Source: Candidatus Pacearchaeota archaeon
Lineage (GTDB): Archaea; Nanobdellota; Nanobdellia; Pacearchaeales; GW2011-AR1
Direction: 5' to 3'
Length of the DNA: 42,665 nucleotides
Assembly (NCBI GenBank): GCA_018304025.1
Contig: JAGVXA010000009.1
Coordinates: 1-42,665 of the forward strand
The position numbers and the translations under genes are program-made. A model generated the notes under the pieces. The model searched no databases. It was not told where the DNA came from and worked only from the letters and a program-made list of their open reading frames with translations. How positions within the stretch are numbered: the first letter of the stretch is position 1; each line of letters begins with the position of its first letter. This document shows positions 4,296 to 42,275 of this stretch, in pieces.

Positions 4296-5831
4296 TTAGC
4301 TAGCCCTCCATCTGCCGCCAACACTGGATTCAATTCTTCTTCTAAGATGCAAGTCAGTATTGATATCGTCGTTAGCAGCGTCTCTTATTTCTTCTAATCG
4401 TTGAGGGGGAACAATTGTATTTTTCATTATAGGGCGTTTCCAATTCATCAAATCAGGATTAAAATTTCTGTCCAAATATCCTCCTCTTATCGCCTCGTCG
4501 TAAAGAGAAGAGCCGGGAAAAGGCACAGGAATAAAAAAAGTGACATACGGCGCTCCAGAATTCATCAAGATTCTTCCCAGTTCAATGCTTCTCTGGATTT
4601 CTTCTTCAGTTTCATCAGGAAAACCTATCATTAGATTCACAGGCGCTTTGATTCCTAATTCGCTCATTTCTTTCATAAGTTCTGGCAAGTCCATTCTGTC
4701 CAAGTTAACTTTATTGGTCGCATATTTTTTTAAAATTCTCTGCGAGCCAGATTCAACAGGAAAAACTATCTGTTCAAATCCTGCATTTTTTAGCGTCTCT
4801 AAAAATTCTCTATCAATGACATATCTTCCATTTTTTTGTTTCCCTAAATCAAAATAGTCTCGTATATTCACGCCGTTAACGTCCATAATTTCAAAATTAT
4901 ATTTTTTAGCTCTTTCAAATATTTCTTTCGCTCTTTGCTTATCAAAAAATAAACTATCATCTTCAAAAAATAATTTCTCAATCCCTAATTTTTTTAATTT
5001 TTCCATTTCTTCGACGACTCTTTCAATCGAATGTTTTCTGTACGCGCCAATAGCGCCAGTTCCTTTTTCCGCGGTTTTTTCTGCAGAGATATGGCAATAA
5101 GAGCATCTAAACGGGCAACCTCGAGACGTCATAATCGGAGCATATCTTCTCTGAATTTTATCCGTAACATCTACTCCATGCGGCGAAGAAATGTCTGCGT
5201 ACTTTTCAAACAGAAGTTTTTCCCAAAAAGGCATAGCTAATTCGTCGAGAGTTTTAGGAAAGCAAGTTTCATCAACAGGATTTATTTTAATCTCGCCATT
5301 TTCAGTTCTATAAGCCCATCCCAAAACATTTTCCACTCCTCCTAAAATTGCCCTCGGAAAAATTAATTCTCCTTCTGTTAAGCACACCCCGTCAAAATTT
5401 TCCGTAGCCAAAAATCTTTCCTTCAGCGCTCTCGCATTTACTCCGCCAGCATAAATTTTAATCTTAGGATTTGCTTTCCTTATTGCTTCAGCAGTTTCGA
5501 AAGCCATTCTTGTTTGAGGAGTGAAATTCGAACTTATACCAATCGCATTATATTTTCCGTCTTCAACATAGCCGGCAATCTCGTCAAAATTCATTCCTAT
5601 TCTTGTTAGCCCATTTTCTTGTCGGGCATTCCTGTAAAATGTATCTTTCAGAGTTTGTTTCTTCCCGCCGACAGAAGCATCTAGAACATCAACAGGAATT
5701 CCTCTTTTTTCTAATTCCGCAGCTAAATACAATGGCCCCAAAGAACCGTCTGGCCTCGGGGTTTCAACATCCATCAGTTGATTAGGAGGATAAATAATCA
5801 AAACTTTAGATTTTTTAATTTTGCTTTGCAT
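4296..5831 (-). CDS. B12-binding-type radical SAM protein
   Basis: 511 aa. The N-terminal 150 residues resemble the cobalamin-binding/Rossmann domain of the B12 radical SAM group (LIIYPPNQLMDVETPRPDG, then GGVNARALKERF). The [4Fe-4S] motif CPFRCSYC has cysteines at 239, 243 and 246 and is followed by the radical SAM barrel (VESGSQRIL, IGFPDETEEE). Family members methylate or rearrange lipids, cofactors and antibiotics, so the substrate cannot be read from sequence. It starts the surface-glycan region, with a TATA-like TATTTAAA at 5853-5860 centred 25.5 bp upstream of the ATG. Confidence 0.85.
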   Translation of the reverse strand: MQSKIKKSKVLIIYPPNQLMDVETPRPDGSLGPLYLAAELEKRGIPVDVLDASVGGKKQTLKDTFYRNARQENGLTRIGMNFDEIAGYVEDGKYNAIGISSNFTPQTRMAFETAEAIRKANPKIKIYAGGVNARALKERFLATENFDGVCLTEGELIFPRAILGGVENVLGWAYRTENGEIKINPVDETCFPKTLDELAMPFWEKLLFEKYADISSPHGVDVTDKIQRRYAPIMTSRGCPFRCSYCHISAEKTAEKGTGAIGAYRKHSIERVVEEMEKLKKLGIEKLFFEDDSLFFDKQRAKEIFERAKKYNFEIMDVNGVNIRDYFDLGKQKNGRYVIDREFLETLKNAGFEQIVFPVESGSQRILKKYATNKVNLDRMDLPELMKEMSELGIKAPVNLMIGFPDETEEEIQRSIELGRILMNSGAPYVTFFIPVPFPGSSLYDEAIRGGYLDRNFNPDLMNWKRPIMKNTIVPPQRLEEIRDAANDDINTDLHLRRRIESSVGGRWRAS

Positions 5832-5861: not shown

Positions 5862-6947
5862 TTAATTGTTATGAAGAATTTTTTCAGTTAATTTTTTTGC
5901 AGTATCAACACAGGTTATAACTTTTCCCCCAAAAATAGAGTACATACCGTTGCCATAATCAGTGATTTCCGTAGGTCTTTCATCCGTATCGTCTACGTTT
6001 GCTTTGACTACTCTCGTCACAAACAGCGATCTTAAGATTTGCGCTTTTTTCAAGAAAGGATAATCCAGATATCCTCGTCTCAAAATCTCTTCTTTATTTG
6101 AAGCAGTATTTTCATTCGACATTACAACAGGGTCAATATCATCAGAAACAACAGATTTCAGGAGAGAAGCATCAACGTGCCCAAGCGTAAACGTTCCTTT
6201 TTCTCCTCGGGGCAAAACAGAACTAAAAGCACCATCAACAATTGTCAAACCAATTCTTGGAGAATTAGGAATATACAATTCTAATAACTCAACAAGCTCA
6301 TACAATAATTTTTTTCTAGGGAAACCAAACCATTTGTTAAAACTATTAAAATTAGAATAAGTAGCGTTAACGACTATATCAAATTCTTCTGCCGATTCAA
6401 AATTGCCGCAGGAAAAAATTAATTTTTTCCTGCTTCCGGCTACTTGTCCGCCAATAACTTTGTGATTCAATCTCAAACAAATATTTTTTCCTCGCATTTT
6501 TTGCAAAATCAAACCCTTCAATATGTCTGGGTCGTAAACTCTCTCAGGCGTTTTCAGGCAAATACCAATATTCCTTCTATCCATAAATTGTTCCTCTGGC
6601 CAGGCGATTTCATACGGCAGATTTAATTCGTCGCAAAATCTAACAAAATTTTCCGGAGTCGTTTTTGTGTTTATTCTAGAAACGCCGTAAAAATCTTCAA
6701 AAAATTCAGATACACTATCTCCAAATTCCGCTTCAAAATTTTTTCTGGAAGAATTTATCTCGCTAACAGTTTCTTTGCTTCTGGGATAATGAAAACCATA
6801 GTGGTGTCTGAGGTGGTTTATTGTAGACGCGCCGGTGAAAATATTGTCTGCTCTTTCAAATATCACAATTTCAAAACCCCTTCTTGCTAATTCCAAGGCA
6901 GCACAGCATCCGAATATTCCTGCCCCGATAATTGCTATTTTTTTCAT
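5862..6947 (-). CDS. FAD-dependent oxidoreductase (DAO family)
   Basis: 361 aa from ATG at 6947; a longer frame would need a TTG start beyond the promoter. The start MKKIAIIGAGIFGCCAALEL carries the GxGxxG dinucleotide-binding fold. The NHLRHHYGFHYPRS segment resembles flavin-adjacent regions of DAO-superfamily enzymes found in sugar clusters. The C-terminus GMYSIFGGKVITCVDTAKKL fits the second FAD-contact motif. The substrate is unknown. It is divergent from the heptose nucleotidyltransferase gene and shares its promoter, so an oxidation step on the same sugar or glycan is a reasonable guess. Confidence 0.75.
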   Translation of the reverse strand: MKKIAIIGAGIFGCCAALELARRGFEIVIFERADNIFTGASTINHLRHHYGFHYPRSKETVSEINSSRKNFEAEFGDSVSEFFEDFYGVSRINTKTTPENFVRFCDELNLPYEIAWPEEQFMDRRNIGICLKTPERVYDPDILKGLILQKMRGKNICLRLNHKVIGGQVAGSRKKLIFSCGNFESAEEFDIVVNATYSNFNSFNKWFGFPRKKLLYELVELLELYIPNSPRIGLTIVDGAFSSVLPRGEKGTFTLGHVDASLLKSVVSDDIDPVVMSNENTASNKEEILRRGYLDYPFLKKAQILRSLFVTRVVKANVDDTDERPTEITDYGNGMYSIFGGKVITCVDTAKKLTEKILHNN

Positions 6948-6997
6948 ATGTCTCATTTTCAAGTAAAATTTATAAAGATTTATGTTATCGCAAAACC
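6948..6997. promoter_or_regulatory. Shared bidirectional TATA in a 50-bp divergent spacer
   Basis: TTTATAAA at 6969-6976 is its own reverse complement and sits exactly midway, 25.5 bp from the start codon of each divergent gene (ATG 6947 minus, GTG 6998 plus). That is the normal TATA-to-start distance for leaderless archaeal genes in this window, so one TBP site could fire both ways. The same geometry recurs at 35376-35425. Confidence 0.7.
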
Positions 6998-7750
6998 GTG
7001 AAAGCAATCATTCTTTGCGCCGGAAAAGGAGAAAGACTTAGACCAATAACAGAAGCAATTCCAAAACCAATGATTCCGATAAATAACAAACCAGTTTTAG
7101 AATATCTGGTATTATTATGCAGAAAGCACAATATAACCGAAATCGCAATCAACACGTCCTATCTTCCGGAAAAAATAAAAAGTTATTTTGGAGACGGAAG
7201 TAAATTCGGAGTAAAAATAAATTATTCTTTCGAGCAAAATCTATTAGGAACTTCTGGAGCATTAAACAATTTTAGAGATTTTTTCAAAGAACCTTTCTTC
7301 GTCATATACGGAGACAATATTACCGACTTAAATCTTACAAAAATGCTTAAATTCCACAAAGAAAAAAAAGGAAAAGGAACATTGTATCTTTATCGAGAAA
7401 AAATAACAGACAAAAAAACCGGCGCTGGCTACGTAACAATAAACAAAAACAACCAAATCGAGGCAATTGTTGAAAAACCAAAAGAAGAGGAACTTGAAAA
7501 ACTAAACCAAATCTTTTCTGAAAAAAAATTTTTCAATGCCGGCGTTTATATTTTAGAACCGGAAGTATTAAAAATAATTCCCGAAGGATTCTCTGATTTC
7601 GCAAAAGACATTTTTCCCAAAGTGCTCATGTCAGACAATCTTTATGGCTACAAAGAAAATTGCTATTTCAAGGAAGTTGGACAATTTATACGATATCAAA
7701 AAGCGAAAGAAGAGGTAGAGTCTGGAAAAATTAAATTTGATTTTATTTAG
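6998..7750 (+). CDS. hddC: Sugar-1-phosphate nucleotidyltransferase (heptose-1-P guanylyltransferase-like)
   Basis: 250 aa from a GTG start at 6998, placed by the TATA at 6969-6976; upstream in-frame codons lie before the promoter. The NTP-transferase signature AGKGERLRPIT is at 8-18, followed by KPM at 23-25, and YGDNI marks the metal-binding Asp. VEKPKEEE and FNAGVYILEP are typical of this fold. Family members make NDP-sugars. The kinase, isomerase and phosphatase genes downstream point to D-glycero-alpha-D-manno-heptose-1-phosphate as substrate (HddC role), with GTP likely. A mannose- or glucose-1-phosphate activity cannot be excluded from sequence. Confidence 0.75.
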   Translation: MKAIILCAGKGERLRPITEAIPKPMIPINNKPVLEYLVLLCRKHNITEIAINTSYLPEKIKSYFGDGSKFGVKINYSFEQNLLGTSGALNNFRDFFKEPFFVIYGDNITDLNLTKMLKFHKEKKGKGTLYLYREKITDKKTGAGYVTINKNNQIEAIVEKPKEEELEKLNQIFSEKKFFNAGVYILEPEVLKIIPEGFSDFAKDIFPKVLMSDNLYGYKENCYFKEVGQFIRYQKAKEEVESGKIKFDFI

Positions 7751-7772
7751 TTCGTTTAATCTGCTTTCCAAT

Positions 7773-7805
7773 ATATATAAATCTTTCGCAGAAATATTTA
7801 TATAT
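7773..7805 (+). promoter_or_regulatory. Inverted-repeat TATA promoter of the heptose operon
   Basis: ATATATAAAT at 7773-7782 and ATTTATATAT at 7796-7805 are perfect inverted repeats 13 bp apart. The second copy is centred 40.5 bp before the kinase ATG, farther than the usual 25.5 bp. The kinase mRNA would therefore carry a short leader of about 15 nt, unlike most genes here. Two TATA-like boxes facing each other could also bind a dimeric regulator. Confidence 0.45.
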
Positions 7806-7840
7806 CTCCCAGCCTACAATTTTATCTATTAAAAAAGAAA

Positions 7841-8827
7841 ATGATAATCACAAGAGCACCATTAAGAGTGTCATTAGGTGGAGGAGGAAGTGACTTGCCT
7901 TTCTATTCTTCTAAATTCGGAGGATTTCTGATTTCAGCAGCCATAAACAAATATAACTACATAATCGTAGAAAAAAGAGATTTTACAGACGAGATGCTTA
8001 TACGATATTCCAAAACAGAAACTGTTAAATTTGTAAAAGACATAAAACATACAAGAATAAAATCCGCATTAGAATACCTTAACATTAATGAGCCAATTGA
8101 AATAACCACAATAGCAGATGTTCCTGCAGGTACTGGTCTTGGCTCGTCAAGCACTTTCATGGTTGCTTTGCTTAAAGCTCTGCACACATACAAAAGAGAA
8201 GATATTTCTTCTGAAAAATTAGCTGAAGAGGCAGCTTTAATCGAAATTAAAATTTTAAATGAGCCAATCGGGAAGCACGACCAATACCTGGCTTCTTACG
8301 GCGGAGTTGTATGCTTAGACATAGACAAAACAGGAAATGTTTTTCCAAGTAAAATAAGCATGTCTCATTCTACACTTGAAGAATTAGAAAATAATATTTT
8401 ATTATTCAGCACTGGAATAATACGAAATGCTAATGAAGTTCTTCTGGACCAAAAGAAAAATTCAGAATCAGACGAATCAAAAATGGAACAGATGCATATT
8501 ATAAAAGACATCGGCAAAGAAATAAAAACTTCTTTGGAACAAGGCGATTGTAAAAAATTTGGAAAATGGTTGAATGTTCATTGGGAAACAAAGAAAAAAT
8601 TTAGTGAAAAAATGTCGTCAGGATTAATAGACAGTTCATATGAAGCAGGATTAAAAAGCGGAGCAATCGGGGGGAAGTTAGTCGGTGCAGGCGGAGGCGG
8701 ATTCCTGATGTTTTACTGCGATAATAACAAAAGGCAGTTAAGAGAAACAATGGAAAAAATAGGACTAAAAGAATTAAATTTTAGATTTGACGGAGACGGC
8801 TGTAAAGTTATATACGAGGGAAAATGA
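7841..8827 (+). CDS. hddA: D-glycero-D-manno-heptose 7-phosphate kinase-like GHMP kinase
   Basis: 328 aa, GHMP kinase superfamily. RAPLRVSLGGGGSDLP at 5-20 and PAGTGLGSSS at 95-104 (ATP-binding loop) match the HddA/heptose kinase group closely. IGKHDQYLASYGG and GGKLVGAGGGGFLMFYC complete the set of conserved motifs. The likely reaction is ATP-dependent phosphorylation of D,D-heptose-7-phosphate at C1, giving the 1,7-bisphosphate. It overlaps gmhA by ATGA, so the two are co-translated. A fucokinase-like activity is the main alternative, but the flanking gmhA and gmhB make the heptose route far more likely. Confidence 0.85.
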   Translation: MIITRAPLRVSLGGGGSDLPFYSSKFGGFLISAAINKYNYIIVEKRDFTDEMLIRYSKTETVKFVKDIKHTRIKSALEYLNINEPIEITTIADVPAGTGLGSSSTFMVALLKALHTYKREDISSEKLAEEAALIEIKILNEPIGKHDQYLASYGGVVCLDIDKTGNVFPSKISMSHSTLEELENNILLFSTGIIRNANEVLLDQKKNSESDESKMEQMHIIKDIGKEIKTSLEQGDCKKFGKWLNVHWETKKKFSEKMSSGLIDSSYEAGLKSGAIGGKLVGAGGGGFLMFYCDNNKRQLRETMEKIGLKELNFRFDGDGCKVIYEGK

Positions 8828-9450
8828 GTAGAGAATTTATCGATCGCTACCTGCAAGAAACCGAAGAGATTATTAGAGACATAGATAGAGAAGAAATATC
8901 CAAATTTGTAGAAATCTTATTTGAAACTTGGAAAAATAAAAAGAAAGTAATTACTATGGGGAACGGAGGAAGCGCAAGCACAGCCTCGCATTTCGTAGGA
9001 GATTTAATCAAGACAGTTTCAAATCCGTCGTCGATGAAGGAAATCAGTTCAGTCAAGGGTTTTAGAGCAATATGCCTGAATGACAATCATCCTGCTTTGT
9101 CAGCATGGATAAATGATTCTGGTTGGGAAAAAGCATACAGCGGATTGCTAAACACATTGCTAGACGACGGAGATGTAATACTTTTAGTTTCCGTGCACGG
9201 AGGTTCTGGTTGGTCTGGAAATTTAGTTCACGCCATGGACTTGGCAAAAAAAAGAAAAGCAAAAATTCTTGGCCTTGCAGGTTTTGACGGCGGAAAAATG
9301 AAAGAAATGTGCGATTCATGCATAGTTGTTCCAAAAGATTCAACGCCGCACACAGAAGGATTTCACGGCGTTCTCCAGCACCTAATTGTTTCCCGCTTGC
9401 AAGAAAGAATTGGTGAATACTCTAAATTAAACACAGACGAAAATGAATAA
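8824..9450 (+). CDS. gmhA: Phosphoheptose isomerase-like SIS-domain protein
   Basis: 208 aa, a single SIS domain. The sugar-phosphate loop is GNGGSASTASHF at 46-57; SVHGGSG lies at about 123-129 and HTEGFHGVLQHLI at 176-188. GmhA converts sedoheptulose-7-phosphate to D-glycero-D-manno-heptose-7-phosphate. The Glu that follows the loop in E. coli GmhA appears as Asp60 here (HFVGDL), a conservative change worth checking. It overlaps the kinase by four bases and gmhB by eight, so it is part of a tight operon. Other SIS isomerases are possible, but context supports GmhA. Confidence 0.85.
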   Translation: MSREFIDRYLQETEEIIRDIDREEISKFVEILFETWKNKKKVITMGNGGSASTASHFVGDLIKTVSNPSSMKEISSVKGFRAICLNDNHPALSAWINDSGWEKAYSGLLNTLLDDGDVILLVSVHGGSGWSGNLVHAMDLAKKRKAKILGLAGFDGGKMKEMCDSCIVVPKDSTPHTEGFHGVLQHLIVSRLQERIGEYSKLNTDENE

Positions 9451-10033
9451 AGCATTCTTCTTTGACAGGGACGGAATTTTAAATAAAGGAATATACAGAT
9501 ACGACGAGGAGCACCAAAAATATTTAGACGCAGCCCCAACAAGTCTTAAAGAGTTCAAGATAAACGAATCTGCAAAAAAAATTATTCAACACGTTAAATC
9601 AAAAGGATTTATTCCAATAATCGTTACAAACCAGCCAGACTTTTTGAAAAGAAATCTCCTCTTAAAAGATTACGAAGAAATAACTTCCAAACTCTGTAAA
9701 GAATTTGGATTAGAAAGAGGGCAGGTGTTTGAATGTTTTCACAAAAAAGGTTTTTCTTTAGAATGCAGTTGTAAAAAACCAAAACCTGGATTATTTTTAA
9801 TGGCAAAAGGGGTTTATGAAATAGATATGAAAATCTCATGGGTTATAGGAGATTCTCATCACGATATCGAAGCAGCCAATCAAGCCGGAGTTTTAAACAG
9901 TATTTTTTTAAGAATCCCTAAAATCAAAGGAAAAACCGAAGGCAATGAAGAAAGCGAAAAAAAACTTTTAGAAAAAGGAATCAAAGTTACTCACATAATA
10001 AAAAATATTTCAGAGGTGGCGGATTTAATATGA
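9443..10033 (+). CDS. gmhB: D,D-heptose 1,7-bisphosphate phosphatase-like HAD protein
   Basis: 196 aa, HAD superfamily. FFDRDGILN at 6-14 carries the nucleophile Asp8 and the acid/base Asp10. VTNQPDF is motif II. CFH at 98-100 and CSCKKPKPG at 108-116 give the Cys/His zinc site typical of GmhB and the histidinol-phosphate phosphatase group. GDSHHDIEAANQAG supplies the metal-binding Asp137 and Asp141. It would remove the C7 phosphate to give heptose-1-phosphate. It overlaps gmhA (ATGAATAA) and the transaldolase gene (ATATGA). Confidence 0.87.
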   Translation: MNKAFFFDRDGILNKGIYRYDEEHQKYLDAAPTSLKEFKINESAKKIIQHVKSKGFIPIIVTNQPDFLKRNLLLKDYEEITSKLCKEFGLERGQVFECFHKKGFSLECSCKKPKPGLFLMAKGVYEIDMKISWVIGDSHHDIEAANQAGVLNSIFLRIPKIKGKTEGNEESEKKLLEKGIKVTHIIKNISEVADLI

Positions 10034-10905
10034 GCACAAAATTTTTTGCAGACACAGCGAACCAAGACGAATTGGATTTTTCTTTTTCCAAAGGAGTTAA
10101 TGAAGGCATAACAACAAATCCAAAAATAATGGAAAATGCAGGAGTAAAAGATTTTGAAACCGCATGTCGAGAAATTTTAAAAAAATATTCTTCTGTTCCA
10201 GTAAGTTTAGAAACAGATTTGGAAGGTATCCCCGTTTCAGAAATTGAATCAAGAGCAGAAGAAGTCAAAGAAGTTCTTTTTAGGCAAGCAAATAATTTAG
10301 CCAGTTGGGGAGCTAATGTTGTTGTAAAAATTCCAGTTTGTCTTGGCGGATTGAAAGCAGTGGAATTTCTTGCTAAACAAAATATAAAGACAAACGTAAC
10401 CGCCTGTATGACTCCCTATCAGGCTGTTGAATCTGCCAAAGCAGGAGCAGACTATGTAAGTTTATTCGCTAATAGAATGCTTGATTCGCATATTCTAGAA
10501 TTATCTGGCGTGAACTTGGAACAAATAGCAAACGATTCTAAATGGAAGTCTGCAGTCAAAGAGAACAGGGAGAAATATTTGGAAGAAGCATGGGAAAAAA
10601 CTCTTGCGCAAATCGCGTATGTATCAGAATATTTGCAAGGCGGCAAAGCCCGGCTGATTATCGGAAGCATAAGATTTCCCGAAGACATTTACAGAATATT
10701 AAAATCAGGCCCAGACATAATAACTATCCCCACTGGAATAGTCAGGCAGTTAAGCAAAATACCAGAATTAAAGCAAACTAAAAAATCAATTAATGGCTCT
10801 AATGCAGCAACGGGAAATTCTCTGTCGCATCCAATGACTTCTTACACACTCGAGGAATTTGAAAGAGCCGCAAGCTCTTACAGAAACGAATACAAAAATA
10901 CTTAA
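10030..10905 (+). CDS. Transaldolase / fructose-6-phosphate aldolase family
   Basis: 291 aa. KFFADTANQDE at 4-14 and GITTNPKI at 26-33 are transaldolase signatures. VVVKIP at 98-102 places the Schiff-base lysine at Lys100, and TNVTACMTPYQA follows. The length is between the short TalC/Fsa enzymes (about 215-220) and classical transaldolase (about 315-330). It overlaps gmhB by four bases. Transaldolase can produce sedoheptulose-7-phosphate, the GmhA substrate, so its place at the end of this operon suggests a dedicated precursor supply. Fructose-6-phosphate aldolase activity is an alternative. Confidence 0.85.
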   Translation: MSTKFFADTANQDELDFSFSKGVNEGITTNPKIMENAGVKDFETACREILKKYSSVPVSLETDLEGIPVSEIESRAEEVKEVLFRQANNLASWGANVVVKIPVCLGGLKAVEFLAKQNIKTNVTACMTPYQAVESAKAGADYVSLFANRMLDSHILELSGVNLEQIANDSKWKSAVKENREKYLEEAWEKTLAQIAYVSEYLQGGKARLIIGSIRFPEDIYRILKSGPDIITIPTGIVRQLSKIPELKQTKKSINGSNAATGNSLSHPMTSYTLEEFERAASSYRNEYKNT

Positions 10906-10927: not shown

Positions 10928-11650
10928 ATGAAAAAACTAATTGTTGTAATTCCCGCTTATAACGAAGGAGAAACTCTTAAAAAAAATGTAGAAGAACTTT
11001 ACAACTTTCTTAAAAAAAATATCAAAAATTACAAATGGAAGATAATAATAAGCGATAACGCTTCAATCGACAAAACTCTCGAGATAGCTAAAAATTTAGT
11101 TAAAAAATACAAAAAGATTTCAGTTGTTCATATGAATTCAAGAGCAAAAAGTTTAGCTATAAAAAAAATTTGGTTAAACGAGGAAGCTGATATTTATTCA
11201 TTTATGGACGCAGATTTATCAGCAGACCTTAATTACTTTCCGCAGTTAATCTCTGGAATAGAAAAAGGTTTTGATATTTCAATCGGCTCAAGAACATCCA
11301 AGCAATCAGTAACTTCCAGGAAATTTAAAAGGCACATCACTTCTTTGACATTAATTCTGATGATTAAAATTTTATTTAGGATGGATATAGAAGATTTTCA
11401 ATGCGGATTTAAAGCAATAAATAAAAAAATTCGTGACAACATAATTCCTAAAATGAAAGCAGTTGATCACGGATTTATGGACACTGAGATGTTGGCTGTT
11501 GCTAACAGTCAGGGCTACAAAATCAAAGAAATACCGATTGCATGGAAAGACGATAGAAAAAGCCACAACAAAATAATTGCCGGAATTTTAGACGCGCTAA
11601 AAAATATGATTCGAATAAGAATAGATTTGTGGAGAGGAGCCTATAAATAA
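10928..11650 (+). CDS. Family 2 glycosyltransferase, dolichyl-phosphate-sugar synthase-like
   Basis: 240 aa GT-A enzyme. VVIPAYNEGETL opens the nucleotide-sugar fold, FMDADLSADL holds the DxD-type metal site, and IGSRT, FQCGFKAIN and VDHGFMDTEML are typical of the DPM1/polyprenyl-phosphate glycosyltransferase group. No C-terminal membrane helices follow, as in soluble DPM1. It lies 22 bp after the transaldolase gene, so it may load the heptose or another sugar onto a lipid carrier, which is inferred from position. The 3' end faces the epimerase gene. Confidence 0.85.
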   Translation: MKKLIVVIPAYNEGETLKKNVEELYNFLKKNIKNYKWKIIISDNASIDKTLEIAKNLVKKYKKISVVHMNSRAKSLAIKKIWLNEEADIYSFMDADLSADLNYFPQLISGIEKGFDISIGSRTSKQSVTSRKFKRHITSLTLILMIKILFRMDIEDFQCGFKAINKKIRDNIIPKMKAVDHGFMDTEMLAVANSQGYKIKEIPIAWKDDRKSHNKIIAGILDALKNMIRIRIDLWRGAYK

Positions 11651-11668: not shown

Positions 11669-12517
11669 TTAAAAATAATTAGATTTGCATATTAAAATAA
11701 TTCTGTTCAAGTTATCATAAAAAGAAGAAAAATTATAATTCCTGTAAGGATTATTAGAAATTCTTTTTTCGTCAAAGCCATCAACATCAAACGGAATTAA
11801 AAATCTAAATATCCTGGCTATGCCGGTAGGAAAATGAATAACCAAACTTTTCCGTCCAATCTTATCATTTATCGCTTCAATAACTTTATTGATGCTTGTA
11901 GTTTGATTGCCGGATATTTCAACTATCTCCCCCGTCTTAAAATTCTTGACCAGCTTTAAAACAACCCCTGCCAAATCTTCTCTTAAAACAGGTTGTATTT
12001 CATTGTCTCCGTTTCCGATAACAAAAGCAAAATTAAATTTAAAAACCATCCGCGCCATTTTGTAGAAGTAATTTTCTTTGCCGATTTCATAAACAAAATT
12101 TGGTCTAATAATCATATAATCCAAATCAGAATTAATCAATAATTTTTCAGCAGCTTTCTTGCTTCTCGCATAATGCCCTTTATTTCTTAAGTTAACATTT
12201 TGAGTTGAAAAATAAATCAATTTAATCTTTTTTTTGTTTAAAACATCAATTAGATTTTTCAACCCCTCGACGTTTTCTCTATACCGAAATTTATTAAAAC
12301 TTCTAACAACAGAAGCAAGATTTATTACCATATCAAAATTATTAATTCCTCTGGTAAGACTTTCTTTCTTTAGCAAATCACCCAAGACGAATTTATAGTT
12401 TCCTAAATTTTTTCTCCGATCCATAATGCTGACTTCATATTCTTTATTCAACTCTTTAACAAGCGCTCTTCCAATATACCCGTTTCCGCCTATAACCAAA
12501 ATTCTTTTAATTGCCAT
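11669..12517 (-). CDS. NAD(P)-dependent epimerase/dehydratase-like SDR protein
   Basis: 282 aa, extended/atypical SDR. The Rossmann glycine motif GGNGYIG is at 10-16, GDLLKKESL follows, and the YxxxK catalytic pair is Tyr116 and Lys120 (YARSK). Acting on nucleotide sugars is common for this family, but the group also includes NDUFA9-like assembly factors and reductases, so the substrate is open. Its start lies 28 bases inside the 3' end of the upstream radical SAM gene, indicating coupled expression. Confidence 0.75.
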   Translation of the reverse strand: MAIKRILVIGGNGYIGRALVKELNKEYEVSIMDRRKNLGNYKFVLGDLLKKESLTRGINNFDMVINLASVVRSFNKFRYRENVEGLKNLIDVLNKKKIKLIYFSTQNVNLRNKGHYARSKKAAEKLLINSDLDYMIIRPNFVYEIGKENYFYKMARMVFKFNFAFVIGNGDNEIQPVLREDLAGVVLKLVKNFKTGEIVEISGNQTTSINKVIEAINDKIGRKSLVIHFPTGIARIFRFLIPFDVDGFDEKRISNNPYRNYNFSSFYDNLNRIILICKSNYF

Positions 12518-13833
12518 TTTAAAAAATTAAATATGTAATTCCCCCTGAAATAATACTTCTTGAAAGCATACTCTTGAAGATTCTTAAGCTGCTTTTCAGT
12601 CAGATTACCGTGTTTAAACACTAAATTAACAGAATTAAATTTTTCAAAATTCTCTTCAGTTATAAGATTCTTCGTCGTTAATTCGTTATAAAATCCTGTT
12701 CCGGGATAAGGGCACGAAATGCAAAACTGGGCAACATTTGTATTCAGTTTAATAGCATAATCTACTGTTTTTTTAATATTCTCTGCGCTGTCACCAACCA
12801 GTCCGAATATGTAAAACGCCGAGATTTTTATTCCCAACTTGTTGCAGTATTTTATTATATCTTCTTGATGTTTAACTTCTATCAATTTCCTCTTGTTTTC
12901 TTTAGCTATTTTTTCATGTACAGTTTCTATGCCGACGTTTAAACTTCTTAATCCGACATCAAATAATTCCTCCAAAATTTCTTTGTTCAAAATATCCAAT
13001 CGGGTCTCAATCCCAAATTTTATTTTAACTTTTTTTTCTTTCATTAATCTTGCAAATTCTTTTATCTGCTCTCTGTCCAAACCAAATGTTGGATCTCTAA
13101 ACTGCAGTCCCCTTATCTTGTATCTTTTTATAAGAAATTCAATATCTCCTACAATTTTAGAAGCCTCTCTTACTCTATATTTAGAACCCTGTATCATTCC
13201 ATAAGCGCAATAATACGAACACGAATAAGGACATCCTCTGCTTGCTTGAATGGTCAAAAAAGGTTTTTCTTTTATTGCAGGAAAGTAAGAATATTCTTGT
13301 ATCGGAAAATTATCAAAATTAGGGGAAGGCAAATCATTCATGCCAACAAGTTTTTTAACATTCACAACACCTTTCAGTTTTTCTAAATTTTTAAATTCAT
13401 AAAGAAAATAACTTTCTGCTTCTCCCCGGATGACAAAATCGCCTTCGAATAATTCAGATTTCACAGTCGGAAAAGTTCCAAAAAAACCAATTTTCGCGTT
13501 CCGATATTTTTTCTTAAGTTCCTTGCAAATTGCATTCTCGTATTTGTAGTCTACAATTGAGCCGTAAATAAGCATCAAGTCATAAATTCCAAATAATTTT
13601 TTTTTGTCAGAATATTCAATATAATCCACGTTATGTCCTTGCTGCAAAAAAATTGCCTGCAAATAAGCAAAAGACAAAACCGGAATTCTAACTGCCTTTT
13701 TTTTAAGAACGCTTATCAATCTCGAAGAAAACGAATTCCCAAAATCTGAAAAAGTTCCCATTCCGCCGGCAAGATCTTTGTTCATCGCACCCCGAACATT
13801 TGGATTTAAAACATTAATTAGCGCAATTCTCAT
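12490..13833 (-). CDS. Radical SAM protein with CX3CX3C cluster motif
   Basis: 447 aa. An N-terminal B12-binding-like domain (about 1-145, with GEAESYFLYEF) is followed by the radical SAM core. The cluster motif reads CPYSCSYYC, with cysteines 201, 205 and 209. This is CX3CX3C, one residue longer than the usual CX3CX2C, and it is in frame with no sign of a frameshift. VGIETVHEKI and YIFGLVGDSAENI are normal radical SAM barrel motifs. The substrate is unknown, probably a lipid or glycan given the neighbours. A TATA-like TTTAAATT at 13855-13862 is centred 25.5 bp upstream of the ATG. Confidence 0.8.
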   Translation of the reverse strand: MRIALINVLNPNVRGAMNKDLAGGMGTFSDFGNSFSSRLISVLKKKAVRIPVLSFAYLQAIFLQQGHNVDYIEYSDKKKLFGIYDLMLIYGSIVDYKYENAICKELKKKYRNAKIGFFGTFPTVKSELFEGDFVIRGEAESYFLYEFKNLEKLKGVVNVKKLVGMNDLPSPNFDNFPIQEYSYFPAIKEKPFLTIQASRGCPYSCSYYCAYGMIQGSKYRVREASKIVGDIEFLIKRYKIRGLQFRDPTFGLDREQIKEFARLMKEKKVKIKFGIETRLDILNKEILEELFDVGLRSLNVGIETVHEKIAKENKRKLIEVKHQEDIIKYCNKLGIKISAFYIFGLVGDSAENIKKTVDYAIKLNTNVAQFCISCPYPGTGFYNELTTKNLITEENFEKFNSVNLVFKHGNLTEKQLKNLQEYAFKKYYFRGNYIFNFLKWQLKEFWL

Positions 13834-19090: not shown

Positions 19091-20359
19091 CTACTCTTTC
19101 CAGGTTCTCTTGCCGTACAAAACCAGTTTTAACCCTCGAGAGATAATCTTTGGATATTCTGTAACTTTTCTTGTTTTTAATAAATTTTTAATAACGCTCT
19201 TGCTTAGCGCCCCGCTAATCATGATTTTTTTGACAAGCTCAGATACTTCTTCCTTTGTCAAATGCAACGTAGGCGCCAAAGGCAATTTTGACGAACTAAA
19301 ATCCTCAAAATTTAATTCCGCTTCATTCACTAAATTTAACTTTTTCATTTCTTCAAAAATAGGAGTCCCTGGATAAGCAGCCAAAAAATTGCAATGATAG
19401 TTCAATGCTCCTACTTTTTTCTTTAAATCGACCATATCCTTTGATGTTTCGTGCGAGTCCCAGGGAAACCCAAACATAAAAGTATACCTGAACGGAATTT
19501 TCATTTCATTAAATTTTTTAGCATTGTCAATTATCTGCTGAATCGTCAGTCTTTTGTCCATCTTGTCCAACACCTCCTGAGTAGCGCTTTCCACCCCGAA
19601 AAGTAATACACCTTTTGATTCTTTCAAAGCAGAGTACATTCTATCCGTCATGCGGTCAATTCTTCCATCGCCGCTCCACTCCAGTTGTAATTCTTTCATC
19701 ATTTCGCATATTTTCAAAAATCTGTCTTCATTTATATTCAAATTATTTCCGCACAATCTTATTCGCTTAACACCTCTCTTTTTCAAGTACTTCAATTCTT
19801 TTTTTATAACATCAAGATTTCTGTCCATCAAACCAGTTTTTCTCGCGTTGCAATAAGTGCACTGATAGGGGCAATATTTAGAGACAACAATCGGAAAAGG
19901 CGCTTCTGTTAAATAAGGATTAATATCTATCTCTTCATAATTTATTTCAGAATCTTCCACGCTAATTTTCATTCCTTTTTCTCCGTCGTAAAAAACATCT
20001 TCTACAAACGGAAATTCTTTCAGAATTTTTTCCTTCCAGAAAAAAGGCGCAATAACCAGATATAATTTGGAAATTTTGCTGAGCTTTTTCATAAAATTCG
20101 TCTTTTCACGAATTGATGGTGTATAAACATAATATATTATTTTTTCCGGGAGATTCTTTTCTAATTTTTTTAATATTTCCTCTTCACCCGTCAAATTTCC
20201 ATCAAAAAATTCCGGGCTTAATCCAGCTTTTTTCAGCGCAAAATAAAAAAGAACAATTTCTGCATGAAACATTTTTTTCTTCGAATAGCCATAACAACAG
20301 TGTTCCAGCATCGGAAATTTATCCTCTGATTTTCCCATTGAAATAATAGCAATTTTCAT
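19091..20359 (-). CDS. Radical SAM protein
   Basis: 422 aa. An N-terminal domain of about 150 residues, partly like a degenerate B12-binding domain, precedes the cluster motif CPYQCTYC (Cys163, 167, 170). FGVESATQEVLDKM and FMFGFPWDSHETS are barrel motifs of the B12/Elp3-like radical SAM group, and YPGTPIFEEM is common in that set. The substrate is unknown. It is convergent with the membrane protein gene across a 29-bp gap. Confidence 0.82.
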   Translation of the reverse strand: MKIAIISMGKSEDKFPMLEHCCYGYSKKKMFHAEIVLFYFALKKAGLSPEFFDGNLTGEEEILKKLEKNLPEKIIYYVYTPSIREKTNFMKKLSKISKLYLVIAPFFWKEKILKEFPFVEDVFYDGEKGMKISVEDSEINYEEIDINPYLTEAPFPIVVSKYCPYQCTYCNARKTGLMDRNLDVIKKELKYLKKRGVKRIRLCGNNLNINEDRFLKICEMMKELQLEWSGDGRIDRMTDRMYSALKESKGVLLFGVESATQEVLDKMDKRLTIQQIIDNAKKFNEMKIPFRYTFMFGFPWDSHETSKDMVDLKKKVGALNYHCNFLAAYPGTPIFEEMKKLNLVNEAELNFEDFSSSKLPLAPTLHLTKEEVSELVKKIMISGALSKSVIKNLLKTRKVTEYPKIISRGLKLVLYGKRTWKE

Positions 20360-20391: not shown

Positions 20392-21561
20392 TTATTCTTC
20401 GATAGAAATATTAGATTTATAAAATTCTTTGATTGACTCGCAAACAAAGCCGATTTCATCTTCTGTTTTGTAAGCATCTAAAGGCAAGCTTATTATGCGT
20501 GTTGACGTTTTTTCCGAGACAGGAAATTTTCCTTCTTTATACTTCAAATAACTAAAAGCTTTTTGTAAATGTAACGGGATAGGATAATGTATTGCCGTCG
20601 GAATTTCTTTTTTCTCTAAAAATATTTTCAATTCATCTCTTTTTTCAGCTTGTATAGTATACTGCGCATAAACAGATTTATTGAATTTTCTAACATGCGG
20701 CAAGATTATCTTATTTTCTTCTTCTAAATTCCTCAAGTTTGTATTGTATAATTCAGCAAGTTTTATTCTTTCTTCAATTTCATTTTTAATAAACTCCTCT
20801 AATTTTGCAAGCAAGACAGCAGCTTGAATAGTGTCCAGTCTTAAATTCAGTCCAATAATTTCGTGTTCATATTTTTTCTCCTGCCCGTGATTCCTTATTT
20901 TTCTGATTTTATTTGCAATTTCTTTGTTGTCAGTAAAAATCATCCCGCTATCTCCATACCCCCCTAAAGGTTTTGCTGGAAAAAATGAAGTAATAGAAAT
21001 GTCTCCTAACGCGCAAGCCTTTTTTCCATTATATTCTGCACCAAAAGCTTGCGCGCAATCTTCTATAACAAACAAATTAAATTTTTTAGCGAGTTTATTT
21101 ATTTCGTCATAATCCGCAGCCTGTCCAAACAAGTCCACCGCTATAATCCCCTTTATCTTTTCTTGTAAAATTTTTTCTCCATTAACTGGATTAAATGGAT
21201 TTTCTAAAAAATCCTTTAGCTTTTCAACGCTTAAGTTATAGGTTTTATCGTCGATATCTACAAACAGCGGCTGCGCGCCAAGGAAAGCAATTGTTTCAGC
21301 ACTAGCAATAAATGTAAAAGGCGTCGTAATAACAAAATCTCCTTGCTTTATATCTGACGCCATCAGAGAAGCCAGCAAAGCGTCTGTCCCAGAAGAAACA
21401 CCAATTGCCTCTTTAACACCGACGTATTCAGCCATTTTCTGTTCCAGTTCTTTTACCTCAGGCCCATTTATGAATTGCCCATGTTCAAAAACTTTCTCTA
21501 ATCGGCTATCTATCTTTCCCTTTAGAAAAGAATACTGTTTTTTTAAATCGCAAAATTCCAT
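20392..21561 (-). CDS. DegT/DnrJ/EryC1 sugar aminotransferase (WbpE-like)
   Basis: 389 aa PLP-dependent nucleotide-sugar aminotransferase. GVSSGTDALL at 54-63 binds the phosphate, Asp168 in VIEDCAQAFGA contacts the pyridine ring, and Lys197 in FFPAKPLGGYGDSG forms the aldimine. This motif set fits WbpE/PglE-type enzymes that aminate 3- or 4-keto sugars. Its ATG follows the stop of the upstream dehydrogenase-acetyltransferase fusion with no gap (TAAATG). That arrangement supports 3-amination in a UDP-2,3-diacetamido-uronic acid pathway. Confidence 0.87.
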   Translation of the reverse strand: MEFCDLKKQYSFLKGKIDSRLEKVFEHGQFINGPEVKELEQKMAEYVGVKEAIGVSSGTDALLASLMASDIKQGDFVITTPFTFIASAETIAFLGAQPLFVDIDDKTYNLSVEKLKDFLENPFNPVNGEKILQEKIKGIIAVDLFGQAADYDEINKLAKKFNLFVIEDCAQAFGAEYNGKKACALGDISITSFFPAKPLGGYGDSGMIFTDNKEIANKIRKIRNHGQEKKYEHEIIGLNLRLDTIQAAVLLAKLEEFIKNEIEERIKLAELYNTNLRNLEEENKIILPHVRKFNKSVYAQYTIQAEKRDELKIFLEKKEIPTAIHYPIPLHLQKAFSYLKYKEGKFPVSEKTSTRIISLPLDAYKTEDEIGFVCESIKEFYKSNISIEE

Positions 21562-23139
21562 TTACCCGCCGCCTATTTTTTTTAAAGGTTTTAGATAATC
21601 TTGGAAATGTTCATATTTTTCTTGGCATCTTTTGCATTCTAAAATCTTTTTTTCATCCGAATAAATCTCTCTTGTTAAAACTTCTCCGCATTTGCAAACC
21701 CATCCCTCTTGTTTTCCAGGCAAGCCCAAAATAAGCGCATAATCTGGAATGTCTTTTGTAACAACCGCGCCCGCGCCAATAAGCGCATATTCTCCAATCG
21801 TAACATCTCCGACGATAGTTGCGTTAGCGCCAATAGTCGCGCCCTTTTTCACAAGCGTATTTACAAATTCATTTTTTCTCTCTACAAACGCGCGAGGATT
21901 TAAGACATTTGTAAAAACCATCGACGGCCCGCAAAAAACATCATCTTCGAGAATCACGCCCTTGTATACTGAAACATTGTTCTGTATTTTGCACCTGTCT
22001 CCAATTACAGCATCCGGCCCAATCATCACGTTTTGTCCGATAATACAATTTTTTCCTATTTTGCTGCCTTTCAAGACATGAGAAAAATGCCAGATTTTTG
22101 TCCCTTCTCCTATTTCAGCTTCAATTTCTGAAGAGGGATGCGCGTAATAATTACTTTTGTTAACGTTCATTTCATTTTCATGTTCAACTTTGTCTATTAA
22201 TAGTTTATGTATTTTATTTCTATCATTAATTTTAGGAATAGCATTTCTAATTTTATACACCAATTCTATCGCAGGCCTGACTTCCCTTATTCCAAATCCC
22301 TTTCCATCAAGGGTTTGTTTGTACATTTCAGTATGCAGATTTGTAAATCCTTCGGAAAACTCTATCTCTTCCCCATCTATTAAAATCGAACGGTAGGCAG
22401 AATTTTCTCCGTTCTTTTTGGCTTCAAGAGGAATATCTTTTTTTTCCGTCGACAAAAACCACCTAACATTAGCTTTTTCCAGTTCTAAATATCCGCCCAT
22501 TCTCTTTTTATCAGAGTAATGGACTTCGTAATTTTTTACATTTCCAAATATCCATATAAGCATATCAAAAAAATGTACTCCTAGATTTGTTGCAAGCCCG
22601 CCAGACTTCTCTACTTCACCTTTCCAAGAACGTTCATACCATTTTCCTCTTGGAGTAATGTAAGTAAGCTCTATATCATATTTATTCTGTCTATTTTCAT
22701 TCTCGATTTTTTCTTTTAATTTTTTTAAAACAGCATGGCATCTTAATTGAAGTATGCTAAATACTCTTCTTCCAGTTTCTTTTTCCAGCTTTTCAAGTGC
22801 GTCAAGGTTCCAGGGATTAAGAACAGTCGGCTTTTCGCAAATCGCATCCGCTCCAATTCTAAAAGCAAACCGTATATGCGCGTCGTGCAAATAATTCGGA
22901 GAGCATATGCTCACAAAATGGATTTTAACATTTGGTTGTCTGCGAAGTTTTTCCGCATGCCTGTCAAATCTCTCAAATTCAGTGAAGAAATTAACATCTT
23001 CAAAATATTTATCCAGTATTCCTACAGAATCCGATTTGTCAACAGCAGCAATTAAATTATTTCCAGTATCTTTAATAGCCTGCAAATGCCTCGGAGCTAT
23101 AAACCCCCCGCAACCTATCATTGCAAAATTTTTTGCCAT
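21562..23139 (-). CDS. WbpB-like dehydrogenase fused to WbpD-like acetyltransferase
   Basis: 525 aa. Residues 1 to about 316 are a Gfo/Idh/MocA oxidoreductase: [12 protein letters not shown] at 7-18, CEKP at 101-104 and [15 protein letters not shown] at 180-194. Residues from about 328 are a left-handed beta-helix acyltransferase with repeated hexapeptides ([29 protein letters not shown]). It ends in a cysteine-rich tail, CKCG plus CKRC. WbpB oxidises UDP-GlcNAcA at C3 and WbpD acetylates the 3-amino product. With the adjacent WbpE-like gene the set makes UDP-GlcNAc(3NAc)A-type sugar. The UDP-GlcNAc 6-dehydrogenase (WbpA) is not in this window. Confidence 0.87.
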
Positions 23140-25760: not shown

Positions 25761-26771
25761 TTAATTATACCTATAATACCTTAAAAAATTTAACCTTTTT
25801 TGAAATATTAAATTTAATGGAAATAACTTGCTCGGTACAAATCCTTCTCTTTCTTTGCAAAGAGAGCAAATATGTTTGTTCGGAAATTTATTATTTATGT
25901 GCATCTCTCTTAGCTTCTGCATTTTTTCACTGTTCCAAATTTCTTCTAAAGTTTGAGTATTCAAATCGCCCACAACGCACTTGGCGTCAGAATCAAAACA
26001 GCAAATAACAACTCGCCCGTCCCATAAAACAGTTAGCTTATTCCATAGCCACAGGCACGGATAATACTCAGTTCTCTTCGCCTTGTGGGACACTTCTTCT
26101 TGGAGTTTGTTTATTTCATCCATCGTGCCGTCCCAAGTTATAAATTCCTTGACCTGAACTTCGTCAATTCCCTTTCTGTCTCTCCATTTTTTTTCAAACG
26201 CAAGTATCTCATCTTTTGTTTCTTTCATTTTAATTATTGCTATCGTGGTGAATGGTTTTTTGGCGTTTCTTTTTTCTCTTTCCTTTAGAAACAATTCAAT
26301 GCCTTCCAGCGCTTTTTGGTAGTTCGCGCTTCCGCCGCGAATCTTTTCATACGTCTCCTTAGTTGCTCCGTCGAGGGACAAATGAAGTATGTCTAATCCG
26401 CCATCAAAAATTTCTTCAATAGTTTTCTTGGTTAAGCTGGAAGGATTAGTGGATATCGCAGATTTAATTCCGTATTTATTGCAAATCTTGAACATCTCTC
26501 CAATTTTGGGATGCAGCAAAGGGTCGCCAAAATGATGCAATGCAACTCGGCTGTTCCATTTTAATTGTTTAACAATTTTTTCAAATAATTCAATATTCAT
26601 AAATCCTATCTTTCGCGTCATATGATTTCTCGGGCACATTAAACATTTCATTCCGCAGGCATTTGTCGATTCAATATTTTGAATCATTGGTTTTCCCCTG
26701 CAAACAGTTTTCCCATTAGAATATTCGTATCCCTTTCTCCACAAATTAATCAGTTTTTTATTTGTCTCCAT
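25761..26771 (-). CDS. Radical SAM/SPASM-domain protein
   Basis: 336 aa. ESTNACGMKCLMCPRN places the SAM cluster cysteines at 39, 43 and 46. HHFGDPLLHPKI and LSLDGATKETYEKIRGG are the barrel motifs usual in SPASM proteins. The C-terminal part has LWDGRVVICCFDSD, GDLNTQTLEEIWNS and CSLC, a SPASM-type auxiliary cluster domain with an unusual CC pair. Such enzymes modify peptides or, in surface clusters, sugars and lipids. It stops two bases from the FemAB-like gene start, so they are co-expressed. Confidence 0.85.
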   Translation of the reverse strand: METNKKLINLWRKGYEYSNGKTVCRGKPMIQNIESTNACGMKCLMCPRNHMTRKIGFMNIELFEKIVKQLKWNSRVALHHFGDPLLHPKIGEMFKICNKYGIKSAISTNPSSLTKKTIEEIFDGGLDILHLSLDGATKETYEKIRGGSANYQKALEGIELFLKEREKRNAKKPFTTIAIIKMKETKDEILAFEKKWRDRKGIDEVQVKEFITWDGTMDEINKLQEEVSHKAKRTEYYPCLWLWNKLTVLWDGRVVICCFDSDAKCVVGDLNTQTLEEIWNSEKMQKLREMHINNKFPNKHICSLCKEREGFVPSKLFPLNLIFQKRLNFLRYYRYN

Positions 26772-28386: not shown

Positions 28387-29079
28387 TTATTTTCCCCAGA
28401 ACGTTATATATCTCGACATCCATTGGACGCTGGAAATTGCTCCGAATATAATAAATAATAAATATGGCTGGTTGAATATTACCCCTAAACTTACCAAAGT
28501 CCATTGAATATCGAGGGAAAACGCAAATGCTCCGGGATTTATTCCGAAGAAACTTTTGCTTGCTTTTTTCCTGACATTTTCAATTGGATTAACCAGGTTA
28601 AATTTTTTCCTCAGCACATCTGAAAGGAGCGCAGCATAATTTATCATCGTATAGCTAAAAATATTATAGGTTCCAAGAAAAATTATCGTCAAATCGCCGG
28701 TTTGAACAAAGGTTTTTATCATCAGCACAAAGAAAACCAGCGAAAAAGCGATAATCCCTGTGCTTTCATCCAGCCATTTGCCCATCGCATTTTTTTTATT
28801 ATAAAACCTCGCAACAGTGCCGTCAGAAAGGTCTATAACAAGCCCGAACAAAAACAGCAAACCTGCAACTATCATCCAATATCCGTCCAAATAATAAATC
28901 ATTATTGCAGAAATTATCGCAGTTAAAAGCCCCAATAAATTTACAAAATGTGCGTGTATCTTGAATGAAACAGCAACCCAAGAAACAAACACAGCCATAG
29001 GATAAAAAATGTATTTTATTAAAGGTCTTGTCAAATGCTCTTCTTTGAAATATTTAGCAACCTCTTTTCTTTCTACCAT
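28387..29079 (-). CDS. CDP-alcohol phosphotransferase-family membrane protein
   Basis: 230 aa from ATG 29079; a TTG one codon upstream would sit only 23.5 bp from the TATA at 29102-29109, whereas ATG is 26.5 bp from it. About six helices are predicted. The family motif reads DLSDGTVAR at 83-91, then Gly100 and Asp104, and Gly108 replaces the final catalytic Asp. These enzymes transfer a phospho-alcohol from a CDP-lipid or CDP-sugar alcohol. As in the fused neighbour, the fourth Asp is missing, so it may use another mechanism or be inactive. Lipid-anchor synthesis is a possible role. Confidence 0.75.
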   Translation of the reverse strand: MVERKEVAKYFKEEHLTRPLIKYIFYPMAVFVSWVAVSFKIHAHFVNLLGLLTAIISAIMIYYLDGYWMIVAGLLFLFGLVIDLSDGTVARFYNKKNAMGKWLDESTGIIAFSLVFFVLMIKTFVQTGDLTIIFLGTYNIFSYTMINYAALLSDVLRKKFNLVNPIENVRKKASKSFFGINPGAFAFSLDIQWTLVSLGVIFNQPYLLFIIFGAISSVQWMSRYITFWGK

Positions 29080-29181
29080 CAAAAAAGAACTCTTCTTTTA
29101 CTTTTAAATTTAATGGAGTTGCAGGCATTGCAGAAATACGAGTACAGATATGTTTTTAAACAAGTTAATTTTTTTGCAGTT

Positions 29182-41300: not shown

Positions 41301-42275
41301 ATGAAAATTTGCATAATAAAACTGGGAGCAAAAGGAGACGTAATCAGAACTATCCCTGTAGCAAAAGCGATCAAAGAAAAATACAAAGACTCCGAAATAA
41401 CTTGGATAACAAAATCAAACATTTCAGACATCCTAAAAACTTACAAATTCTTAAATCAAATAGAAACAATCCCTTTCTCAACAGCAGAAACATTCGATAT
41501 TCTCTACAATTTCGATATAGAAAAAGAAGCAACTGATTTAGCAAAAATAATTCGCGCAGAAAAAAAACAGGGGTTTTATCAGGAAGGAAATTACGTAGAA
41601 GCATTCAACCTCGGCGCAGAATACTATCTCAACACTTTATTCGACGACGAAATAAAAAAATCAAATCGTCTCACTTACCAAGAAATGATGTTTCGGGTAG
41701 CAGAAATTCCGTGCAAAGAAGAGATAGTTCAATTAATTCTTCCAAAACAAGCATTAGATTACGCGGATAATTTCCTAAATCAAAATAATCTCTCCACCGA
41801 AAAACTAATTGGAATCCATCTAGGCGCATCCCCAAGATGGCCGTCAAAGGCATGGCACGAAGATCGTGTAAAAGAATTCATAACAAAAGCAAAACAGAAA
41901 AATTGTCAGGTAATTCTTTTCGGCGGCCAAAACGAATCAGATAAACTCGCATCAATCGCAGAAGAGCTCGGCGTTTCAATAAATAATCCAAATAACACAA
42001 ATTTAGAATTCGCTTCTCTAATCGACAAATGCAAAACAATAATCTGCGCAGATTCTTTCGCGTTGCATCTTTCTCTGGCATTAAAAAAACCAACAATCGG
42101 ATTATTTTTCGTAACCTCTCCCAACGAAGTCGAGCCTTATAATCTTCTAAAAAAAATTACTTCCCCTCTTCTCAAAGATTTCTTCCCAGAAAAATCCGAT
42201 TTATACGACGAAGAATTGGTTAAATCTATCTCTTCCGATAATGTCCTGGATGTCCTGGCGGAAACTCTCTTTTAG
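41301..42275 (+). CDS. Family 9 glycosyltransferase, heptosyltransferase-like
   Basis: 324 aa GT-B enzyme. MKICIIKLGAKGDVIRTIPVAKAI is the WaaF/RfaF-type start. GIHLGASPRWPSKAWHEDRV, VILFGGQNESDKLA and CADSFALHLSLALKKPTIGLFF follow in the usual order. GT9 members transfer heptose, or sometimes other sugars. Because a heptose-nucleotide operon exists in this window, heptose is a natural donor candidate. CTTAAATA at about 41272-41279 is centred 25.5 bp upstream. Confidence 0.83.
   Translation: MKICIIKLGAKGDVIRTIPVAKAIKEKYKDSEITWITKSNISDILKTYKFLNQIETIPFSTAETFDILYNFDIEKEATDLAKIIRAEKKQGFYQEGNYVEAFNLGAEYYLNTLFDDEIKKSNRLTYQEMMFRVAEIPCKEEIVQLILPKQALDYADNFLNQNNLSTEKLIGIHLGASPRWPSKAWHEDRVKEFITKAKQKNCQVILFGGQNESDKLASIAEELGVSINNPNNTNLEFASLIDKCKTIICADSFALHLSLALKKPTIGLFFVTSPNEVEPYNLLKKITSPLLKDFFPEKSDLYDEELVKSISSDNVLDVLAETLF

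Follow-up and report, generated by a model that had tools for sequence, protein, structure and literature searches.

A five-gene operon with its own transaldolase in a Pacearchaeota archaeon and its relatives: a possible pathway for a nucleotide-activated octose

Which sugar is made by an archaeal operon that joins heptose-like enzymes to a transaldolase of its own? The question is raised by positions 6998-10905 of contig JAGVXA010000009.1 of a Candidatus Pacearchaeota archaeon (assembly GCA_018304025.1), the whole of which (42,665 nucleotides) was analysed and is referred to as the window. The original prediction recognized here a complete D,D-heptose nucleotide pathway, in which the transaldolase supplies sedoheptulose-7-phosphate directly. 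On balance we lean, if slightly, towards another account: the operon would be a dedicated pathway for a nucleoside diphosphate (NDP)-activated higher sugar, which we infer to be most likely an octose.

The predicted tight packing of the locus was borne out: all five genes are intact and are carried on the plus strand, with intergenic gaps of 90, -4, -8 and -4 bp (i.e. overlaps of 4, 8 and 4 bp). Searches of Pfam, NCBIfam and PDB concur on the five enzyme classes: (i) a sugar-1-phosphate nucleotidyltransferase with a GTG start (6998-7750; PF00483, NTP_transferase, 5e-45), (ii) an HddA-related GHMP sugar-phosphate kinase (7841-8827; domains PF00288 and PF08544; GHMP_kinases_N, 4e-14), (iii) a SIS aldose-ketose isomerase with an expanded phosphate loop, SVHGGSGWSGN (8824-9450; SIS_2, 4e-10), (iv) a GmhB-like HAD-IIIA phosphatase with a DxDG signature and a CxH...CxC zinc motif (9443-10033; HAD, 2e-9) and (v) a transaldolase with the catalytic Lys100 (10030-10905; TAL_FSA, 3e-33). 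A TATA-like sequence, TTTATAAA, is located at 6969-6976, upstream of the GTG codon at 6998.

The isomerase has a GmhA-type SIS fold (predicted local distance difference test score, pLDDT, of the model 81; best PDB matches GmhA, template modelling score up to 0.84 by target). It reaches 94 bits with the GmhA family TIGR00441, whose cut-off is at least 209 bits, and in the isomerase tree the clade of the window is separated from characterised GmhA. The zinc ligands of GmhA (His, Glu, Gln and His) are fully conserved among its orthologues (PMC5705639). The window enzyme carries His56, Asp60, Glu178 and His186 instead, as do all of its linked relatives, i.e. those encoded within 7 kb of a transaldolase gene. 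Among the 57 isomerases compared, the Asp/Glu pair is found in 19/19 linked enzymes and also in many unlinked ones; it therefore sets the group apart from GmhA but is no marker of the transaldolase link.

The phosphate loop behaves differently. Judging from GmhA structures, the phosphate-contacting serines presumably sit in the loop S-T-S-G-x-S-x-N. Three serines and one threonine of canonical GmhA are thought to touch the terminal phosphate (PMC5387315). The loop of the window isomerase is three residues longer and is devoid of the threonine. A loop extended by 3 to 9 residues and beginning with SVHGG or SVGGG is present in all 19 linked isomerases, while the 38 unlinked ones have a loop of canonical length. 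When the loop columns are left out of the tree, the linked enzymes form a single branch (100/99), and the contrast (19/19 versus 0/38; Fisher p ~2e-15) would thus represent one evolutionary event, the p-value not standing for 57 independent draws. On the evidence of the tree, the enlarged loop appears to have arisen once and to have been kept over wide divergence.

The transaldolase of the window contains the complete catalytic set (Asp8, Asn30, Glu61, Lys100, Asn122, Thr124, Ser144, Phe146, Arg149 and Ser213), and its model (pLDDT 94) is most similar to solved transaldolases in PDB. The exchange E60Q/F132Y shifts a transaldolase towards fructose-6-phosphate aldolase. The title of PDB entry 4xz9 names E60Q/F132Y as a variant of the Thermoplasma enzyme, and these positions (E60 and F132 in T. 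acidophilum) match Glu61 and Phe146 of the window protein, which together with the Schiff-base Lys100 are of the transaldolase type. These active-site residues rule out a fructose-6-phosphate aldolase. The operon thus has a true transaldolase of its own, as predicted, whose gene overlaps that of the phosphatase.

The fold and the full catalytic set, including the Glu/Phe pair, are common to the window enzyme and the decameric TalC-type transaldolases (Thermotoga TM0295, Thermoplasma acidophilum), but the former is ~70 residues longer, partly through an insert that follows the active-site Arg149, and differs at residues flanking the catalytic Thr and Phe. Its motifs read T-A-C-M and S-L-F, as against T-L-x-F and S-P-F in the free-standing transaldolases of DPANN archaea. 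Replacement of the Leu after the catalytic Thr by Ala, Cys or Ser, and of SPF by SLF, SMF or SIF, characterizes 17/17 linked transaldolases of the archaeal type and 0/12 intact unlinked ones of that type. The linked transaldolases do not form one branch of their tree: at least two changes are needed, and the Rhizobium and Lawsonia enzymes are of the staphylococcal type. Since at least one exchange of the transaldolase took place with the isomerase and kinase retained, its step appears to be required, and the reaction appears to be part of the pathway.

The linked kinases likewise constitute one branch (100/96), apart from characterised HddA (3k85, WcbL) and from the kinases of clusters lacking a transaldolase. 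The nearest characterised PDB relatives of the window kinase are 3k85, 4usk and 4n3o, and its best family is HddA NF049969, although it reaches 165.8 bits against a cut-off of 600. It is HddA-related and is neither a fucokinase nor a mannose enzyme, in keeping with the original prediction on this point. The phosphatase has the GmhB motif FFDRDGILN (DxDGxxN) and the conserved pairs C98-H100 and C108-C110, but stays below the GmhB cut-offs (PRK08942, 86.4 versus 178 bits; TIGR00213, 74.7 versus 149.6 bits). The nucleotidyltransferase is also below its cut-off (HddC NF049965, 103.9 versus 300 bits) and scores higher, at 144 bits, as a mannose-1-phosphate guanylyltransferase; in G036 and G167 it is fused with the phosphatase into a single protein. 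The proposed GmhA, GmhB, HddA and HddC assignments therefore hold at the level of enzyme class, but none of the curated heptose cut-offs was reached.

The survey began with 140 relatives and a named genome collection, scanned for transaldolase, and was extended to the phylum (371 genomes) and to a plasmid collection. A transaldolase was found close to a related isomerase in 19 distinct clusters, 12 of them complete and 7 partial. Ten complete sets belong to DPANN archaea (the window, G036, G070, G219, G327, G436, G154, G195, G415 and G167), so that the gene set recurs where it had been suggested it should be sought, and the nearest operon-bearing relatives, named Pacearchaeota and Nanoarchaeota, confirm the archaeal setting. 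The remaining two are bacterial: contig L039 of a Marinamargulisbacteria metagenome-assembled genome (a metagenome bin, its bacterial assignment being that of its record) and L128, a plasmid of Rhizobium jaguaris. Lawsonia plasmids carry the isomerase, phosphatase and transaldolase together. Two partial loci, L035 (3346-8867) and L038 (1966-7032), combine a linked isomerase and a transaldolase without a kinase. By eye only, cytidylyltransferase-like and dehydrogenase-like genes adjoin them, possibly representing a cytidine monophosphate-activated branch. A literature search, with subscription journals mostly outside it, found no description of the five-gene set in archaea.

Eight further clusters encode a kinase and an isomerase, most of them also a nucleotidyltransferase, without a transaldolase. 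Their isomerases have the canonical loop, 8/8 of the genomes match transketolase, and they look like better heptose candidates. These loci (L199, L201-L204, L206, L173 and L174), whose isomerases carry the zinc-site Asp/Glu, may be read as a second sugar pathway. Two other DPANN loci, L171 (G421, 6880-8412) and L176 (G199, 6097-7629), are fusions of a PfkB/HldE-like start (by eye) with a canonical-loop GmhA; GmhB adjoins both, and they are apparent ADP-heptose pathways in archaea.

A one-for-one match to the window's five enzyme classes, transaldolase included, is provided by LmbR, LmbN, LmbP, LmbK and LmbO of the lincomycin/celesticetin octose pathway of Streptomyces, and eleven other complete clusters share with the window all five classes. 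LmbR of Streptomyces lincolnensis transfers a C3 unit to ribose-5-phosphate, with fructose-6-phosphate or sedoheptulose-7-phosphate as the donor, and an octulose results (PMC5854111); LmbN is a C8 isomerase, LmbK a C8 phosphatase, LmbO a C8 guanylyltransferase and LmbP a predicted kinase (PMC4351081). The resulting guanosine diphosphate (GDP)-octose is then modified by LmbM, LmbL and homologues of LmbZ and LmbS (PMC12945683). Genes of the LmbL (dehydrogenase), LmbM (epimerase) and LmbZ (oxidoreductase) classes adjoin the clusters of some linked relatives of the window operon. We take LmbL to be of the UDPG dehydrogenase family and LmbZ of the Gfo/Idh/MocA family, the tables of the papers giving only dehydrogenase and oxidoreductase. 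UDPG/MGDP dehydrogenase, Gfo/Idh/MocA or SDR genes are located near 7/19 linked clusters versus 0/8 transaldolase-free kinase clusters, and the trio of dehydrogenase, Gfo/Idh/MocA and SDR genes is complete in L128, L191 and L196. The nine genes of L128 (1-7838) encode an epimerase, a nucleotide-sugar dehydrogenase, an SDR protein, a Gfo/Idh/MocA protein, the kinase, nucleotidyltransferase, isomerase, phosphatase and transaldolase, which makes this cluster a tractable bacterial test case. The window differs from the lincomycin pathway in its archaeal host, its surface-glycan setting (with a glycosyltransferase of family 2, GT2, and a flippase) and an isomerase without a carrier-protein domain. 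Streptomyces plasmid matches were also checked for lincosamide-like clusters; one looks hygromycin-like (SIS, galT, APH(7'')), and none of the others contained such a set.

On this model, the transaldolase would take a dihydroxyacetone unit from fructose-6-phosphate and join it to ribose-5-phosphate, yielding octulose-8-phosphate. The SIS isomerase, in which the phosphate loop is enlarged, would convert this into octose-8-phosphate. The GHMP kinase would phosphorylate C1, the HAD phosphatase would take off the C8 phosphate, and the nucleotidyltransferase would form an NDP-octose, probably with GDP. The GT2 enzyme (10928-11650, plus strand), a glycosyltransferase resembling dolichyl-phosphate sugar synthases and a candidate user of the NDP-sugar, may then load the sugar onto a lipid carrier, for use in surface glycans. 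Its gene, absent from the original prediction, starts 22 bp 3' of the transaldolase gene on the same strand, and a homologue with 42% identity has an equal position and orientation in the distant L039. A surface-glycan end use is suggested because GT2, GT4 and flippase genes are neighbours of the operon.

The heptose reading, to which we would give a tentative and distinctly smaller place, has the transaldolase make sedoheptulose-7-phosphate from fructose-6-phosphate and erythrose-4-phosphate, with the other proteins acting as GmhA, HddA, GmhB and HddC towards an NDP-D,D-heptose. The reactions (isomerase, kinase, phosphatase, nucleotidyltransferase) do follow each other as in the known pathway of Aneurinibacillus, Burkholderia and Campylobacter; the isomerase, kinase and phosphatase are nearest to heptose enzymes among characterised structures (best PDB matches GmhA, WcbL/HddA and GmhB) and curated families. 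The known pathway, however, has no dedicated transaldolase, and the isomerase and kinase of the window fall into clades separate from GmhA and HddA, with the otherwise invariant metal ligands changed (PMC5705639 for the ligands) and the phosphate loop enlarged, so the claim of a complete D,D-heptose pathway could not be sustained. Precursor supply also bears on this reading. In the window genome (G000; 992 kb, 88% complete) and two operon genomes of the same family (G036 and G070), all incomplete, no Transketolase_N domain, transketolase pyrimidine domain or phosphoketolase was found. It follows that no erythrose-4-phosphate source was detected there for sedoheptulose-7-phosphate, and phosphoketolase as an alternative source was likewise dropped for the window genome; the direct supply of sedoheptulose-7-phosphate by the transaldolase, as originally proposed, thus finds no backing. 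G140, G141 and G143 gave no Transketolase_N match either. Most operon genomes outside the family of the window do have transketolase, which favours a heptose. Transketolase alone can form sedoheptulose-7-phosphate from pentose phosphates, and an added transaldolase would therefore be superfluous for a heptose in these hosts; the transaldolase-free kinase clusters, moreover, keep the canonical loop. Lack of transketolase as a general cause of the operon was abandoned, as the enzyme occurs in ten further DPANN hosts and in that of the Marinamargulisbacteria cluster. The pyrimidine domain is missing in 84/140 relatives; its absence, being common, matters for the mechanism and not as a statistical link.

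It is rather unlikely that the transaldolase uses another acceptor, e.g. arabinose-5-phosphate or a scavenged C4 sugar phosphate, and so leads to another unusual higher sugar. The substitutions specific to the archaeal-type linked transaldolases (17/17 versus 0/12) would fit such a change, as would the pairing of transaldolase and isomerase with a cytidylyltransferase-like gene in place of the kinase in L035 and L038, but we know of no precedent for such a product. Synthesis of octulose-8-phosphate by this enzyme set, by contrast, is documented (PMC5854111, PMC4351081). That an ordinary pentose-phosphate transaldolase merely lies by chance beside a heptose cluster is scarcely credible: most DPANN transaldolases of the first survey are not beside operon-type genes, but here the genes overlap, a specific linked subfamily exists, and the association in 19 loci, in archaea and bacteria and with different transaldolase lineages, effectively refutes this explanation.

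Several observations weigh against the octose account. The likeness to the Lmb enzymes is, by analogy, one of enzyme class and not of sequence, and the proposal consequently draws on the matching of enzyme classes, on the metabolic argument and on the change of the loop, whose 19-to-38 contrast would be one evolutionary event and not many. No LmbL- or LmbZ-class genes were found beside the window operon. Transketolase is present in 11/17 operon genomes tested (Transketolase_N in ten DPANN hosts and in that of L039). A PRPP (phosphoribosyl pyrophosphate)-synthase-like gene of the window genome indicates that ribose-5-phosphate exists there, but neither RpiA nor RpiB was found in this genome, so that the source of ribose-5-phosphate is also in question, and G036 and G070 gave no PRPP-synthase match. 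The genomes compared are incomplete (88-91%). For the octose proposal it nevertheless counts that a reaction between fructose-6-phosphate and ribose-5-phosphate works with or without transketolase.

Other genes of the window may be connected with the operon. Two possible accessory genes are located on the minus strand: a FAD (flavin adenine dinucleotide)-dependent (DAO) oxidoreductase gene, divergent from the operon (5862-6947), whose L039 homologue, a fusion with a Gfo/Idh/MocA domain, lies immediately upstream of the equivalent operon, and a gene for a B12-binding radical S-adenosylmethionine (SAM) protein (4296-5831), a homologue of which (62% identity) adjoins the operon in G036. A more distant candidate partner, 30 kb from the operon, is the gene at 41301-42275 (plus strand), predicted to be heptosyltransferase-like; its product belongs to glycosyltransferase family 9 (PF01075, 2e-22), but scores well below every heptosyltransferase equivalog cut-off.

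The contig is glycan-rich and has five radical SAM genes (4296-5831, 12490-13833, 19091-20359, 25761-26771 and 37293-38825); B12-binding domains are present in two of these and a SPASM domain in one. At 20392-23139 (minus strand) a DegT aminotransferase gene adjoins a Gfo/Idh/MocA-hexapeptide repeat fusion, as in diacetamido uronic acid synthesis. An unusual fusion is encoded by a 795-aa open frame at 29035-31422 (plus strand), in which a pyruvate kinase barrel is combined with PUA-like and ATP-sulfurylase domains.

The family is larger than the original prediction suggested and is both archaeal and bacterial; the chances are about even that the linked isomerase and kinase clades mark NDP-octose pathways that form a widespread, so far unrecognized family among bacteria and DPANN archaea. 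Whether the product is an octose or a heptose, the names GmhA and HddA, if given on homology alone, may mislabel the whole family. If it is a heptose, the genomes without transketolase pose the question of where reduced archaea obtain sedoheptulose-7-phosphate. If it is an octose, this would be, to our knowledge, the first proposal of an octose nucleotide pathway for archaea, the SVHGG/SVGGG isomerase loop would serve as a genomic marker for further pathways, and an origin of the lincosamide sugar genes would be suggested. Eight-carbon sugars of the lincosamide type would then be ordinary building blocks of surface glycans and no curiosity of one antibiotic class.

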